This document shows positions 70 through 17,765 of a stretch of DNA of 64,000 nucleotides, piece by piece. Location: positions 1 through 64,000 of the forward strand of contig JAPHRO010000036.1 of NCBI GenBank assembly GCA_026195895.1, read 5' to 3'. This DNA is from Gammaproteobacteria bacterium. Lineage in GTDB: Bacteria > Pseudomonadota > Gammaproteobacteria > SZUA-229. The notes beneath the pieces are model-generated. The model saw nothing but the letters and a program-made list of their open reading frames with translations. It was not told the origin of the DNA and searched no databases. How positions within the stretch are numbered: position 1 is the stretch's first letter; each line of letters starts with the position of its first letter. The translations under genes and the position numbers were made by a program.

Positions 70-256
70 CATAAGGTTTACTTGTATAGCGTACGGAACG
101 TCAGGTGGATTAATGTGCTCAGGAAGCACAAATGTCCGAGTTTGTAACTTATTGATTTAAAAGCTTGATGTGAATTCACCAAAGGTGATTTCACAGAAAA
201 CAACTAGAGATTCCAGAAAAATCGGCAGGCAGATGGACCTGTCTGCCGATTTTTTT
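70..256 (+). ncRNA. Candidate small structured RNA ending in an intrinsic terminator
   Basis: Hairpins TGTGCT-CAGGA-AGCACA (114-130) and GTGAATTCACC-AAA-GGTGATTTCAC (170-194, one mismatch) followed by terminator 221-256; no ORF; 5' end not determined. Confidence 0.3.
221..256 (+). terminator. Rho-independent terminator
   Basis: 12-bp stem ATCGGCAGGCAG/CTGTCTGCCGAT (one G.U) followed by T6. Confidence 0.75.
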
Positions 257-294
257 CGCTATTAGAGATAGGACAACGGGAAATGTTTGTCGCA

Positions 295-1366
295 CGACGA
301 ATAATACCGGGGGCCTGGCTCACCTTAATTGCGGGGGCCTCACCAGCCCCCAACACCACTATCACTTGACCCGCAAGGGTCAAGGTTGGACGACCAATCC
401 AACCAGGCCGGGATTGCTAACCCCGGCTGAGCATGCGCTGTAGCGCAGTGCCCGTAATGGGGCTCGCTGCGTTGCAACAAGCGCTCAGAACTGCAATGTT
501 TTGTTCGACTTAATCTCATCAAAAAGCAGATTGGGCGACGCGGAAACGGGCCGAAGGGGAATGTGCTGAAGCACTGAAACCTGAGGATCCCTGTCTACGT
601 GAGAAGGGGTGAAAATCCCCGGTAAGGGCGGCGAGAGATCGTCGAACTTATTCCTGGCAGGTGGGCTGCACGCACGGTAGGAAACTACCTTGAGCCTGGG
701 AGGAGAAATCTAGACCAGGCGGTACCAGAATGCGCAAGCACACTGGATCGTTGTATAGCTCAAGCCTGTAATTGCGACCGAAGAGGCCGCATCCGGGTAA
801 GTGAAGTGATGCCAGTGCCTATCCCAGAAGTGGATAGGTGGTTGAAGCTGGAAGTGTTGGCGTGAGTAAGGGAGCTGCTTTGGAATCTCGGGCCCCCGAA
901 AACCTACTAGGCGAGGTGGAAAACACCTAGCGACCAACATGAGGCGCTGGCTAACGGATCGACTCTGTAGTCTAACGCGGGAAGGCCTAAAGAACTGTGA
1001 TCCACGGGTGGTTCCGTGGGTAGTTCTATGGCTGGGAGCATCGTGAGTAGGCTGAAAATCTCTCTGGCGGTTCAACCGAAGCCATTGAGAGAGCACGACA
1101 TAATCGGGGTGGTACCCGTGGTCGAGCAAAGTGCTGAAAGCGATATGCGTATGCGAAAAGTGACTGGGCGTGGTAGCCCAGGTGGTGTTTGAGCATGACG
1201 TTTCTGAACGGGTGGTGCCGCAGAAATGTCGTGTGTCGAGGTGGTACTCGACAACTCATTTAATTTATTTAACGTAGCGAAGCAGGAGGACAAATAGTAA
1301 TGATTGGCCATTTTAGTTCAGGCCTGGCCAACCCATAGCGCCCCACCATTGTGGTGGGGCGCTTTT
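295..1366 (+). ncRNA. Giant (~1.07 kb) ornate structured non-coding RNA, GOLLD/ROOL-like by size and context, family unassigned
   Basis: At least 15 local hairpins, several with perfect stems and GNRA loops (e.g. 365-384 CTTGACCC-GCAA-GGGTCAAG; 676-689 GGTAG-GAAA-CTACC; 630-643 GGCGA-GAGA-TCGTC), five GUGGUN hexaloop hairpins in the 3' half, 3' terminator; only spurious ORFs. 5' boundary approximate. Confidence 0.72.
1338..1366 (+). terminator. Rho-independent terminator of the giant RNA
   Basis: 11-bp perfect stem GCGCCCCACCA/TGGTGGGGCGC, TTG loop, T4 tail. Confidence 0.8.
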
Positions 1367-1418
1367 AAATTTATTAACTAACCATCCCCTCTGTAGGTGG
1401 TATTTATATGGATTTTGA

Positions 1419-1820
1419 TTAGGTTTTTTTTTGTGCACGACGACGCGGCCTGGTTTTTGGCTGCGCCAATTCAGTAATCAGCCTGGCCACAGACTGATAA
1501 ATATCCGGGCGCAAATGATGAAGGGATTCTACCAGTTCATCGGGGCTTATTAATTCCTGTGCTTTGGATTTCCCGGTTAACACTCGCTCTGTTGTTTCAC
1601 CAGTTAACAGCCATTCTAATGAACATTCAAATAAATCCGCTAGCGCAACAGCCTGCTCAGCTGAAAGCGTGCGTCTCGCCTGAAAATAATGACTAACGCT
1701 ACCGCGTGTTGCCACTCCCAGTGATTCTGCCAGATTGTCGTATGTCAGACCCCGTGACGCCATTAGCTCACGTGCTCGGTCGGACCAACCCTCTATGCTT
1801 TTTAGTTTACCTTTGCCCAT
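1419..1820 (-). CDS. XRE/Cro-CI-type helix-turn-helix regulator
   Basis: 133 aa with HTH-like segment RARELMASRGLTYDNLAESLGVATRGSVSHYFQARRTLSAEQAVALADLFECSLEWLLTGE. Confidence 0.8.
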   Translation of the reverse strand: MGKGKLKSIEGWSDRARELMASRGLTYDNLAESLGVATRGSVSHYFQARRTLSAEQAVALADLFECSLEWLLTGETTERVLTGKSKAQELISPDELVESLHHLRPDIYQSVARLITELAQPKTRPRRRAQKKT

Positions 1821-2358: not shown

Positions 2359-3987
2359 TTATGCTTCTGCGTTAATGATAACTGGCACGTTTAAATCCGG
2401 ATATTCGATTTTACAAATAGCCTCGTTTAAACGTTGGAGAGAGAAGCTAGTGCCATAGCGCCGCCCCATTTTTTGAGTGTTACTGTGTCCCATCAGGGCA
2501 TCAGAAATTTCCTCATCCAGCCCTGCTTCGCGGCAGGCATCTCGGAAATTATGACGAAAGCTATGAAACACTTTACACGGATCAGTGATTTCCAGATCTT
2601 TTCTCAAATACTTCATAAAAGCTTTGGAAAATGCAGCTGAGAACTTGCCAAATCGATCGGGTCGCAACGTAGGAAACAGTTTTTCCTTACCCTGTGTTTT
2701 TACCTGTTCGACATATAGTAGGAATCCTGCTTTAACGAGCTCTGGGTGCAGTGGCAGCCGTCGACGCGAGGCCGTATTCTTGAGCCGCTTTTCTTGTCCA
2801 TTTTCACCCGGCATATCATCAATGACTAAGCAGTAAATGCCATCGATACGCTGCACATCTTCAACCAACAGTTGCCCAAGCTCTTCCACACGACATCCCT
2901 GGTATAAGGCCAGAAGTGGAATCCAGACACTTGCTTCGCCTACTCGGCGACCCAAACGCTGCCCGTGAGTGTAAAGAGGCGATTCAAAAATGCGGTTAAG
3001 ATCAACCCGGTCAAACGGCAATCGATGTCGACTGTCATTTTTTGGAACAGGAACGCGCTGTGCTGGATTAACTACCAACTTGCCACTATTGATGCCCACG
3101 TTAAAAAGAGCACACAGAAAGGTTATTTTTTTATTGACTGTTTTTGACCGTAGTCCACGACCTATCAGGTCGTCACGATAGCGAATGATGTCCTGCCGAT
3201 CAATACAGCTAACATCTTTATTACCAACCAGTCTTTGAAAATCATCGATAACCCTGCGCACATCATCAACAGTTCGTTTTGGCCGATTAGGATCAAAACG
3301 CTGCCAGTCCTCGAAAAGCTCTTCGAGGCTCAATTCAACCTGCGTTGAAGAATTGATGGTTGTGTTGCTTGGTGCTTGCGGTGTCCAGACAACTTCACCT
3401 GCATCCCTCGCTATTTGTTGCTCATGAACTTCCGTTGCCGTTTGTAGAAAACGATAAAGGAGACTGCGATACTGCTGCTGCTCACCCGTTAACTCGACAC
3501 CGATCATGTGCAGGAACACCTGCATGGCAGGCTCAATCGATTCAAGCTGACATTTTCTTAGCGTCTCTCGCAGCAATTCACGCGTCGCACGGCGTTCCTC
3601 AGCCCTTTCCTCCAGCTCTTCGCTGAATAGGCCTTCTCGGCGACTGTATTCATCGCCAGACAGCGTGTAATGACGCCATAAGTCACAGACTTCCTGGATC
3701 AGGCTGTCATCGATGACGCGTGTAGTCTTGCTGCCCTGACTAGTCTGAAGATCATCACGCAATCGCTGGCAACGGCAGTCGAAATCTACCGAAGCCTGCC
3801 GAGCCAGGCGTCTGGCCGTAGCCTGATCCTTAGTCTTGAGCGAAAATTTTTCTTCTGACTTGCCCAGATATCCCCGAAGATCGCTCGGGATTCTGGCGCG
3901 AAAGTAGTAAGTGGAATTGCGTTTGAAAAGGTGTGTTTGCGCATACATGTCTAACATCCAGGTGTACCCCTGTGGTGTACCAGTCAT
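2359..3987 (-). CDS. Site-specific tyrosine recombinase/integrase
   Basis: 542 aa ORF; C-terminal catalytic-like segments GCRVEELGQL, HSFRHNFRDACREAG, LMGHSNTQKMGRRYG; next to tRNA-Ser 3' end. True start may be at MYAQTHLFKRN. Confidence 0.88.
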   Translation of the reverse strand: MTGTPQGYTWMLDMYAQTHLFKRNSTYYFRARIPSDLRGYLGKSEEKFSLKTKDQATARRLARQASVDFDCRCQRLRDDLQTSQGSKTTRVIDDSLIQEVCDLWRHYTLSGDEYSRREGLFSEELEERAEERRATRELLRETLRKCQLESIEPAMQVFLHMIGVELTGEQQQYRSLLYRFLQTATEVHEQQIARDAGEVVWTPQAPSNTTINSSTQVELSLEELFEDWQRFDPNRPKRTVDDVRRVIDDFQRLVGNKDVSCIDRQDIIRYRDDLIGRGLRSKTVNKKITFLCALFNVGINSGKLVVNPAQRVPVPKNDSRHRLPFDRVDLNRIFESPLYTHGQRLGRRVGEASVWIPLLALYQGCRVEELGQLLVEDVQRIDGIYCLVIDDMPGENGQEKRLKNTASRRRLPLHPELVKAGFLLYVEQVKTQGKEKLFPTLRPDRFGKFSAAFSKAFMKYLRKDLEITDPCKVFHSFRHNFRDACREAGLDEEISDALMGHSNTQKMGRRYGTSFSLQRLNEAICKIEYPDLNVPVIINAEA

Positions 3988-4046: not shown

Positions 4047-4136
4047 TGGCGGAGAGGCAGGGATTCGAACCCTGGGTAGGGATAAACCTACGCCGGTTTT
4101 CAAGACCGGTACATTCAACCGCTCTGTCACCTCTCC
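4047..4136 (-). tRNA. tRNA-Ser (anticodon TGA)
   Basis: Complement reads GGAGAGGTGACAGAGCGGTTGAATGTACCGGTCTTGAAAACCGG...GGTTCGAATCCCTGCCTCTCCGCCA; acceptor stem, long variable arm and encoded CCA. Confidence 0.95.
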
Positions 4137-8985: not shown

Positions 8986-9606
8986 ATGAATACTGTTATT
9001 ACAAATCATGCGAATCATTTCACTTTTCATCCCGGGCTTATCAAATCCATGTACCAATTAAGAGATCGTGTATTTAGATGTCGATTAGGCTGGGATGTAA
9101 CAAGCACGGATGGAAACGAAAAAGATCAATATGACGAAATCAATCCTGTTTACATGATGTCCTGTAATGAAAGCAAACAACTTGAAGGGTGCTGGCGTAT
9201 TCTGCCTACAACCGGTCCCTACATGTTAAGAGATATTTTCCCTGAATTATTAAGAGGCGAAGAACTGCCTGAACATGAAAATATATGGGAATTAAGCAGG
9301 CTGGCCGTTGACCCCCAGAAAAAACATTTTCGATTCAAAGGAAACATGAATGAAATCACTCTCGATTTATTTAGAAATATTTATGAATATGGAATAAAAA
9401 ACAACATAAAGCGTTACGTCGCAGTCACCAGCACACCCATGGAACGAATCCTGCGACTAAACGGAATACCTACAACACGCTTTGGCGATGGCAAAACCAC
9501 AAGAATTGGTAACGTCAATTGCCTGTGTATCTGGATTGATGTAAATGACGAACTGAGACAAGCCGTATACAAACCATTTAAACTTGATGATAGGGAAGCC
9601 GCATGA
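8986..9606 (+). CDS. LuxI-family acyl-homoserine-lactone synthase
   Basis: LRDRVFRCRLGWDV...YDEINPVYMM...GCWRILPTTGPYMLRDIFPEL...ENIWELSRLAVDP, characteristic LuxI motifs. Confidence 0.92.
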   Translation: MNTVITNHANHFTFHPGLIKSMYQLRDRVFRCRLGWDVTSTDGNEKDQYDEINPVYMMSCNESKQLEGCWRILPTTGPYMLRDIFPELLRGEELPEHENIWELSRLAVDPQKKHFRFKGNMNEITLDLFRNIYEYGIKNNIKRYVAVTSTPMERILRLNGIPTTRFGDGKTTRIGNVNCLCIWIDVNDELRQAVYKPFKLDDREAA

Positions 9607-15482: not shown

Positions 15483-17765
15483 ATGATAATAAGATATTCA
15501 GAATGGATTTTGAAATGGCGCTACCTGGTGGTATTGCTATCTATAACCGGCGTCCTGTTGCTGGCCAGTGGCGGCAAAAATCTGGTATTTAAAAGTGACT
15601 ATCGGGTTTTCTTCAGCAAGGAAAATCCCCAGTTAAATGCCTTTGAGAATATGCAAAACACCTATACCAAAAATGACAACCTGCTCTTCGTCATCACGCC
15701 GAAAAACGGCAGGGTATTTACCCCGGAAACACTCACCGCCATCCAGGATATCACTCAGCAAGCCTGGCAAATCCCCCATTCCATCCGCGTTGACTCCATC
15801 ACCAATTTCCAGCACACCTATGCAGAAGAAGATGACCTGATTGTAGACGATCTGGTAGCCGAACCGAGCAGTTTAAATCAGGACGATCTGTTTTATGTGC
15901 AAAAAGTGGCCCTGAACGAACCCATGCTGATAAATCGGTTAATTTCCAGGAACAGTGCCTACACGGGTGTCAACGTAATCATCCAGTTACCGGGCATCAA
16001 TGAAATGAAAGAAGTGCCCGAAGTGGTTAGTTTCGCCCGTCAAATAAAAGCTGACTACGAAAGCAAATATTCTGGCATCGAGATTCGACTGGCCGGTATG
16101 GTGATGATGAACAACGCCTTCCCTGAAGCCAGCCAAACGGATTTCAAAGTGCTAATCCCAGCCGCTTTTGGCGTGATTATCGTTGTGTTATTGCTGTTAT
16201 TACGCGGTTTTTCAGGCACTGCCTCCACGGTGATTCTGGTCGCTTTTTCTATCATGGCTGCGATGGGTACCGCTGGCTGGTCAGGTATGTATCTAACGCC
16301 ACCATCCGCCTCTGCACCCACAATTATCTTAACCATCGCTATTGCAGGTGCGGTTCATTTACTGGTCACCATGCTGCAGGAAATCCACAAGGGGGCCAGT
16401 AAACATGATGCAATTATCGAAAGCATGCGGGTTAATTTCATGCCCATTTTTATTACCAGCCTGACCACCACACTGGGCTTTTTAAGCCTTAATTGGAGTG
16501 AAGCCCCACCGTTTCGTGACCTGGGTAATATATCTTCTTTTGGTGTGGTCGCAGCCTTTATTCTGACCATGACCTTCCTGCCGGCCCTGATGTCCATATT
16601 GCCAATCAAAGCCAGGCACCTTGTTGCCGGCACTGACATGATGGACAAATTAGGTGGTTTTGTCGTGGCTAAACGCAAACCGCTATTGTACGGCATGAGT
16701 GTTGCGGTGGTAATACTGATCAGTTTTATTCCAGGCAATCAACTGAATGACGTGTTCGTCAATTACTTCGATGAATCCGTCGAATTCCGCCGCGATACGG
16801 ATTACACCGCCGAGCATCTGACCGGCACTTACACCATCGCTTATTCGCTGGATAGTGGTGAAGCAGAAGGTATCAGCAAGCCTGAATTTCTGGCACAGGT
16901 GGAACAGTTTGCCAACTGGTATCGTCAGCAACCGGAAACTATTCACGTCGCCAGCATTACCGATACCTTCAAACGCCTGAATAAAAATATGCATGCTGAT
17001 GAAGAGGCCTATTACCGGCTGCCCGATAACCGTGAGTTAGCTGCGCAATATCTATTGCTCTACGAAATGTCGTTACCCTATGGACTGGATCTGAATAACC
17101 AGATTGATGTGGCCAGGCAGGCAACGCGCTTGAACGTCACCCTGGAAACCATTTCCTCAAACCAGATTCTTGCCCTGGAACAAAGGGCCAACGCCTGGAT
17201 GAAACAACATACCCCCGCGATTGCCACTGATGGCGCCAGCCCTTCCATCATGTTTGCCCACATTGGCAAGCGGAATATTATCAGCATGCTGACTGGCACG
17301 ACGATCGCCCTGACACTGATCTCGCTGGTATTGATTGTCGCACTGGGCTCTATCAAATACGGCATCGTCAGCCTGATTCCCAATCTGTTCCCTGCCGGTG
17401 TTGCCTTTGGCATCTGGGGCCTGGTGGTTGGGGAAGTAGGTCTGTCTCTGTCGGTGGTAACCGCGATGACGCTCGGCATCGTGGTGGATGATACGGTACA
17501 TTTTATCAGCAAATATCTGCGGGCACGCCGGGAAAATAATCTGGACACCCATGAAGCGGTACGCTATGCCTTCAAAAATGTCGGCGTGGCACTGTGGGTT
17601 ACCTCGGTCGTGCTGGTGGCCGGCTTTATGATTCTGTCGCTATCCACTTTCGAATTAAATTCCGGCATGGGCTTGATGACCAGTATCATAATCTCGATTG
17701 CGCTGATACTGGACTTCCTGCTACTGCCCCCGCTATTAATGAGAATTGACGCTAACAAGAAATAA
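15483..17765 (+). CDS. RND/MMPL-family transporter
   Basis: 760 aa with two 5-6 TM blocks and duplicated MMPL/SSD-like architecture; IVVDDTVHFISKYLRARR. Confidence 0.9.
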   Translation: MIIRYSEWILKWRYLVVLLSITGVLLLASGGKNLVFKSDYRVFFSKENPQLNAFENMQNTYTKNDNLLFVITPKNGRVFTPETLTAIQDITQQAWQIPHSIRVDSITNFQHTYAEEDDLIVDDLVAEPSSLNQDDLFYVQKVALNEPMLINRLISRNSAYTGVNVIIQLPGINEMKEVPEVVSFARQIKADYESKYSGIEIRLAGMVMMNNAFPEASQTDFKVLIPAAFGVIIVVLLLLLRGFSGTASTVILVAFSIMAAMGTAGWSGMYLTPPSASAPTIILTIAIAGAVHLLVTMLQEIHKGASKHDAIIESMRVNFMPIFITSLTTTLGFLSLNWSEAPPFRDLGNISSFGVVAAFILTMTFLPALMSILPIKARHLVAGTDMMDKLGGFVVAKRKPLLYGMSVAVVILISFIPGNQLNDVFVNYFDESVEFRRDTDYTAEHLTGTYTIAYSLDSGEAEGISKPEFLAQVEQFANWYRQQPETIHVASITDTFKRLNKNMHADEEAYYRLPDNRELAAQYLLLYEMSLPYGLDLNNQIDVARQATRLNVTLETISSNQILALEQRANAWMKQHTPAIATDGASPSIMFAHIGKRNIISMLTGTTIALTLISLVLIVALGSIKYGIVSLIPNLFPAGVAFGIWGLVVGEVGLSLSVVTAMTLGIVVDDTVHFISKYLRARRENNLDTHEAVRYAFKNVGVALWVTSVVLVAGFMILSLSTFELNSGMGLMTSIIISIALILDFLLLPPLLMRIDANKK

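Follow-up and report, generated by a model that had tools for sequence, protein, structure and literature searches.

The question raised by this locus is what the loops of five look-alike hairpins contact, and in what kind of RNA they are set. The hairpins lie near the start of a 64,000-nucleotide stretch of a gammaproteobacterial contig (JAPHRO010000036.1); this whole stretch is called the window below. According to a preliminary description, they combine unrelated stems with an almost invariant GUGGUN hexaloop, and form either an iterated binding site for a protein or RNA partner or the parts of a kissing-loop assembly.

The hairpin array and its RNA

All five hairpins (B1 to B5, table 1) could be read directly from the sequence, and their repetition lies far above shuffle expectation. 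Between positions 270 and 1375, four perfect GTGGTN hexaloop hairpins with a stem of at least 4 bp were counted, whereas 5,000 dinucleotide shuffles of the same interval averaged 0.044 and never exceeded 2. The reported excess of GTGGT was likewise confirmed (9 occurrences, 1.75 expected). The apical part of B4 (CGG-GTGGTG-CCG, 1209-1220) has three pairs only and requires the outer stem. RNA spanning positions 940-1265 folded better than every shuffle tried (z = -3.9); B1, B3, B4 and B5 are contained in its centroid fold, and B2, which is absent from that fold, draws its support from homologs.

B1 to B5 are located in the 3' domain of a large structured RNA, the 3' end of which was placed by an intrinsic terminator. 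Its conserved core has 68 predicted pairs, 41 of which have changed on both sides, and at several positions U-G and G-U pairs are invariant (26/26). This invariance points to RNA of the plus strand only, since the opposite strand would give A-C. The hairpin between the protein gene and the RNA is strongly terminator-like in both directions. A sigma-70-like promoter for the RNA was looked for in the window and none was found.

Table 1. Features of the module and its surroundings (window coordinates)
Feature	Position	Strand	Basis
First 19 codons of partner protein (MYDQQVQIHKTVLMQRLLD), cut by contig start	2-58	-	translation and alignment
Bidirectional terminator-like hairpin between protein gene and RNA	215-257	.	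sequence
Whole structured RNA, ~1.0-1.1 kb, ends approximate	270-1371	+	homology, covariation, terminator
5' hairpin A1, loop CTCACCA (339-345)	333-351	+	sequence, homologs
5' hairpin A2, loop CGACCAA (391-397)	384-404	+	sequence, homologs
Hairpin at A3 position, loop ATTGCTAACC, without RCCA in the window	407-429	+	homologs
Conserved core, covariance model R1	437-771	+	278.9 bits in the window
Hairpin B1, loop GTGGTT	1002-1019	+	sequence, shuffle count, homologs
Hairpin B2, loop GTGGTA	1105-1118	+	sequence, shuffle count, homologs
Hairpin B3, loop GTGGTA, GC/GC closing pairs like homologs	1164-1181	+	sequence, shuffle count, homologs
Hairpin B4, apical loop GTGGTG (1212-1217)	1197-1230	+	sequence, folding
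Hairpin B5, loop GTGGTA	1234-1253	+	sequence, shuffle count
Intrinsic terminator, 12-bp stem, T-rich tail	1337-1371	+	sequence
HTH_3 helix-turn-helix regulator	1419-1820	-	domain match
Tyrosine integrase; relatives adjoin the same RNA in L031 and L035	2359-3987	-	domain match, homologs
tRNA-Ser(TGA), likely integration site	4047-4136	-	tRNA search

The search for homologs yielded about 50 loci, spread over alpha-, beta- and gammaproteobacteria and predominantly on plasmids. Searches of plasmids with blastn gave long homologs on plasmids of acetic acid bacteria, on a Halomonas plasmid and on E. coli plasmids of 3 kb and about 30 kb. Wider searches added RNA loci from Acinetobacter, Azotobacter, Thiothrix, Paraburkholderia, Paraphotobacterium, Photobacterium and Kiloniella, and from the Pseudoalteromonas plasmid pMtBL. 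All 22 places of the RNA in E. coli are on plasmids, with none on a chromosome (5,426 genomes). The RNA is rare: of 398 genomes of the phylum, two gave a strong match, and the genome of the window is one of these two. The Thiothrix unzii plasmid L187 holds two copies (1335-1671 and 16726-17068), and the Azotobacter chroococcum plasmid L186, which bears the module, also encodes a PrrB/RsmZ-type sRNA at 9011-9154 (Rfam match).

The RNA is a real, conserved and previously uncatalogued family. Searches with Rfam 15 returned no relevant family in the window (E <= 10) or in 14 homologous loci (gathering thresholds), no group II intron model (domain V included) matched in either, and no description of the RNA was found in the open-access literature. 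A hinted likeness to GOLLD and ROOL did not hold up: their covariance models matched nothing in the window (E <= 10) or the 14 homologous loci (gathering thresholds), and homologs were lacking from the phage and virome collections. No phage record matched the RNA, the partner protein described below was not found in virome contigs, and pattern matches in viromes proved to be chance matches not homologous to the RNA; a phage or prophage origin was rejected on these grounds.

Two complementary sets of loops

The loop CTCACCA, which had been named as a possible pairing partner of the GUGGUN loops, is present in hairpin A1 and belongs to a whole set of RCCA loops in the 5' domain. In 29 lineage representatives, 66 RCCA-loop hairpins were counted in this domain, where shuffles gave 6.3; NUGGYN hexaloop hairpins in the 3' domain numbered 97, where shuffles gave 2.7 (maximum 8). 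Many homologs have RCCA in the A3 loop, unlike the window. The loop statistics refer to placed hairpins, with near-duplicates and unplaceable loci (e.g. L053, L057 and L189) omitted.

The iterated site is conserved. UGG is constant in the loops of B1 (16/16) and B2 (16/16) across homologs. The preliminary description had set as its check that loops should stay fixed while stems covary, and this is the pattern of the homologs: stem pairs 3-5 of B1 and B2 each occur as four or more standard pair types with pairing kept, and both closing pairs are G-C with few exceptions. B3 can be identified over much of the family through its GC/GC closing pairs. In many members the B hairpins outnumber the A hairpins. 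The surplus would be understandable if at least some of the contacts joined different molecules, but the unequal numbers also weigh against the pairing model.

The variable bases of the two sets change together. ACCA in A2/A3 is accompanied by UGGU in B1/B2, and GCCA by UGGC, in 54/54 comparisons (32/32 R:Y complementary for A2 with B1/B2, 22/22 for A3), and A1 is complementary to B3 in 10/10, whereas crossed A/B pairings are complementary in just 18/24 and 14/20. One discordant cell was present in a first-pass A/B comparison. The flanking base also tracks for A2/A3 (p = 0.002 and 0.0008, the Fisher and permutation p values for loop co-variation taking no account of relatedness), and no tracking of this base was seen for A1-B3. 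On the core tree, three independent R/Y switches fall on well-supported branches, and both loops changed each time; with only three switches, a tree-aware sign test cannot be significant (p 0.25).

The strongest control for loop pairing is the presence of separate specificities inside single molecules. In acetic acid bacteria A1/B3 carry GCCA/UGGC, whereas A2/A3 and B1/B2 of the same molecule carry ACCA/UGGU; A1/B3 of the Komagataeibacter plasmid pGE3 read GGCCAA/UUGGCC. Direct loop-loop pairing accounts for such separate specificities, and neither capture of tRNA CCA ends nor recognition of one loop set by a protein explains them. Loop pairing appears well supported by this comparative evidence, and the RCCA and UGGY loops most likely form loop-loop contacts, within or between molecules. 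The kissing interaction, first suggested for a single 5' loop, now takes in the whole co-varying RCCA set, and is better supported than the other options offered with it.

It seems quite unlikely that the array of UGGY hairpins exists to be bound by the partner protein, with the RCCA hairpins as a separate second site. The invariant loop and nearly fixed GG/CC closure of B1 and B2 do resemble a protein-recognised hairpin, and the protein gene is linked to the RNA at most loci, but such an array predicts neither the joint R/Y switching nor the separate A1-B3 and A2/A3-B1/B2 specificities, and the 3 kb plasmids of E. coli retain both loop sets without the gene.

The T-box bulge and the RNase P L15 loop pair with the RCCA 3' ends of tRNAs, and the UGGY loops, present in up to five copies per RNA and complementary to RCCA, might capture host tRNAs in the same way; GGGUGGUACC also resembles the T-box consensus, AGGGUGGNACCGCG. 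This is improbable, because Y switches between lineages along with R of the RNA's own 5' loops and differs among hairpins of one molecule, a pattern that tRNA ends would not impose. The T-box model of Rfam had no match in the window.

The partner protein and its genomic neighbourhood

A protein of roughly 220-290 aa is encoded by a divergent gene upstream of the RNA (29 loci). The N-terminus preserved in the window (MYDQQVQIHKTVLMQRLLD) matches that of the Sedimenticola protein of locus L031 (MYDPLVHLHKTVLMQRLLD) by protein alignment. RNA and protein are linked: the RNA is present at each of the eight genome loci that were detected by the protein alone, and R1 recovers almost every tested locus found via the protein, with E 1e-27 or better. 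A Polaromonas stretch with no R1 match ends at a record boundary, where the RNA would lie. The protein was found in 7/369 genomes of the class, and one of this class (G208) has two protein-plus-RNA modules on separate contigs (L195 and L201). A Gluconobacter sphaericus plasmid (L207) encodes a member of the protein family, yet the core model matches nothing in this stretch. On Acinetobacter plasmids of 11-15 kb (L185, 8602-9723, and L192) a diverged RNA lies beside a longer protein of 373 aa, the N-terminus of which matches the partner family (hhalign E 7.7e-6).

The gene is absent from some plasmids that bear the RNA: those of 3 kb in E. coli and several small ones of acetic acid bacteria. 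In Novacetimonas hansenii the RNA is on NZ_CP062149 (L004) and the protein on NZ_CP062148; these neighbouring accessions have the same source, and the two small plasmids probably belong to one strain. Such a split would fit supply of the missing component in trans.

The partner protein is a new family, with no credible match in NCBIfam, PADLOC, PHROGs, Pfam or PDB sequences. AlphaFold models of two different members had pLDDT values of 90.6 and 88.3, and for both, all listed structural matches with at least 150 aligned residues were RT, RdRp or Prp8-type chains. The best of the listed matches were group II intron maturases (Z 8.6-8.8, close to chance level), and DRT9, DRT2 and retron RTs were also among them. 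Among the listed matches no fold outside the RT, RdRp and Prp8 types covered most of the model, although the fold may still be of another type. Since Z values of 8-9 are near chance level, a reverse-transcriptase-like palm-thumb fold is likely, not proven. The catalytic aspartates (motif A, YxDD) were looked for, and no Asp occurs in invariant or near-invariant alignment columns, which suggests that the protein is probably a catalytically dead, RNA-binding scaffold. Maturases and Prp8 serve their RNAs as chaperone or scaffold.

In pBN5, pPO70-4, pGDIPal5I and pEc631_3 the RNA-protein pair adjoins genes of a type IV secretion system (T4SS) and the coupling protein (T4CP). These plasmids have a VirB-type secretion system and no annotated relaxase, and no relaxase Pfam domain was detected among twenty proteins scanned from pEc631_3 and pBN5. 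On such larger plasmids the RNA occupies the site where the transfer-starting enzyme, the relaxase, would be expected. Plasmids with the protein were typed as non-mobilizable by MOB-suite in 25/25 and 27/28 cases, compared with 444 of 5,000 (8.9%) plasmids with a related VirB4.

Smaller plasmids carry protein and RNA only, and a T4SS is lacking from several module-bearing plasmids. The 3 kb RepL plasmids of E. coli (L007 and L008) have the RNA, and its core shares about 96% identity with the RNA core on the 30 kb T4SS plasmids; strain FHI_NMBU_11 harbours a 3 kb-type RNA plasmid together with a 34 kb relative bearing RNA and protein. In Sedimenticola (L031) and a member of the Chromatiales (L035) the module adjoins a related integrase with a tRNA beyond it, as in the window. 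VirB4 was not found in the window's own genome, so that its element would depend on a helper; a T4CP homologue was not found there either, in a search without a positive control. This distribution would be as expected for a mobilisation module with conjugative, mobilisable, borrowing and integrated forms. That an RNA can be essential to mobilisation has a precedent in the sgm-sRNA of SGI1 (PMC9299015).

From position and distribution, a mobilisation role of the RNA-protein pair is proposed tentatively. Against it stand the module-bearing plasmids that have no T4SS, the missing VirB4 of the window's own genome, plasmids of other groups with a related T4CP, which share the slot without the RNA, and the fact that no nicking enzyme was identified. 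Extension of the family to plasmids of P. aeruginosa, Vibrio, Bermanella and Eleftheria with the same slot was rejected, as the RNA model matches nothing there. The slot in L212-L215 (6170-7980 in L215) consists of a minus-strand ORF of ~250-290 aa, a gene-free gap of 1.0-1.8 kb and then a related coupling protein. In the P. aeruginosa plasmid, the ORF had no match to the partner protein family, and in the gap a hairpin with a loop of the GCCAGAAGC type recurs several times.

A function not in transfer but in controlling the replication, copy number or partition of the plasmid would suit the presence of the module on plasmids of 3-6 kb that hold little besides a Rep gene. This function is nevertheless unlikely. 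The minimal replicating OriR of pMtBL (1918-2759; PMC10033558) excludes the RNA of that plasmid, which lies at about 3114-3780, and on this basis a replication origin was rejected as the identity of the RNA. Moreover, nearby Rep types vary (RepL, Rep3, TrfA, Replicase), and the RNA also persists where the module is integrated and accompanied by an integrase.

A role in defence, as a ribonucleoprotein akin to retrons or DRT systems, is suggested by the RT-like fold beside a structured noncoding RNA and by the DRT9, DRT2 and retron RTs among the structural matches. Little credence is given to this, as the invariant positions include no aspartates, PADLOC gave no match, and on larger plasmids the location is tied to the coupling protein of the T4SS. 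It is equally hard to believe that what is conserved here is a DNA element, for instance an oriT, with hairpins acting as DNA and an irrelevant transcript: the place beside the T4CP is where an oriT would be expected, and the E. coli 3 kb plasmids bear the locus without the protein gene, but the core's invariant U-G and G-U pairs suit plus-strand RNA alone, and the window has a terminator after the 3' domain.

A model and its relation to known systems

The model that we favour, and regard on the whole as rather probable, joins paired loop sets, a protein-bound RNA and a mobilisation ribonucleoprotein. Hairpins A1-A3 near the 5' end would present RCCA, and B1-B5 near the 3' end UGGY, with A1 pairing mainly with B3, and A2 and A3 with B1 and B2. 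In the cell, this pairing would close the RNA into a compact fold or join several copies. The small, divergently encoded, dead RT-like protein may bind the RNA as chaperone or scaffold, and the resulting ribonucleoprotein would serve plasmid mobilisation, replacing the relaxase/oriT complex beside the type IV coupling protein. That an RNA of about 1 kb, pairing with itself and aided by such a protein, replaces the relaxase, and so constitutes a new mode of plasmid mobilisation, is possible but somewhat doubtful. The carriers would then be conjugative plasmids, smaller plasmids that borrow their machinery, down to the RNA-only 3 kb plasmids of E. coli, and tRNA-integrated islands like that of the window.

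If the relaxase is replaced, a group of plasmids that current typing classes as non-mobilizable would in fact be mobile, and an RNA-based branch would be added to conjugation. Large ornate RNAs are, to our knowledge, rare and of unknown function; here the linked protein, the defined neighbourhood, the minimal plasmids of E. coli and Pseudoalteromonas and the swappable loop pairs make the function of the RNA directly testable.

Among known systems, retrons and DRT systems also encode an RT-like protein adjacent to a structured noncoding RNA, but the present protein is apparently catalytically dead and matches nothing in PADLOC-DB. Group II intron ribonucleoproteins and Prp8 share the combination of a large RNA with an RT-like protein, to which the predicted palm-thumb fold of the partner corresponds; here, however, Rfam gave no intron match, the partner lacks conserved catalytic aspartates and a fingers domain, and nothing points to splicing. 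We know of no protein partner for ROOL, and of no plasmid transfer genes linked to OLE, an RNA found mostly in Bacillota.

GOLLD and ROOL are likewise very long, ornate noncoding RNAs of mobile elements with loop-loop contacts, which in their case help to join copies into cages (PMC12286853). Unlike them, the present RNA has no Rfam match, resides on plasmids and tRNA-site islands and not in phages, and has a linked protein gene; the contacts proposed here come from sequence comparison. OLE RNA with its Oap proteins is a large conserved RNA that works as a ribonucleoprotein (PMC9723947), which is the arrangement proposed here, but the present RNA, again, matches no Rfam family. The sgm-sRNA of SGI1 is of ~280 nt and accompanies the tyrosine-recombinase-like MpsA/MpsB, whereas here an RNA of ~1 kb accompanies an RT-like protein; compared by description, the two would share a place beside non-relaxase mobilisation genes of an integrated element, and in SGI1 that RNA is essential for transfer (PMC9299015).
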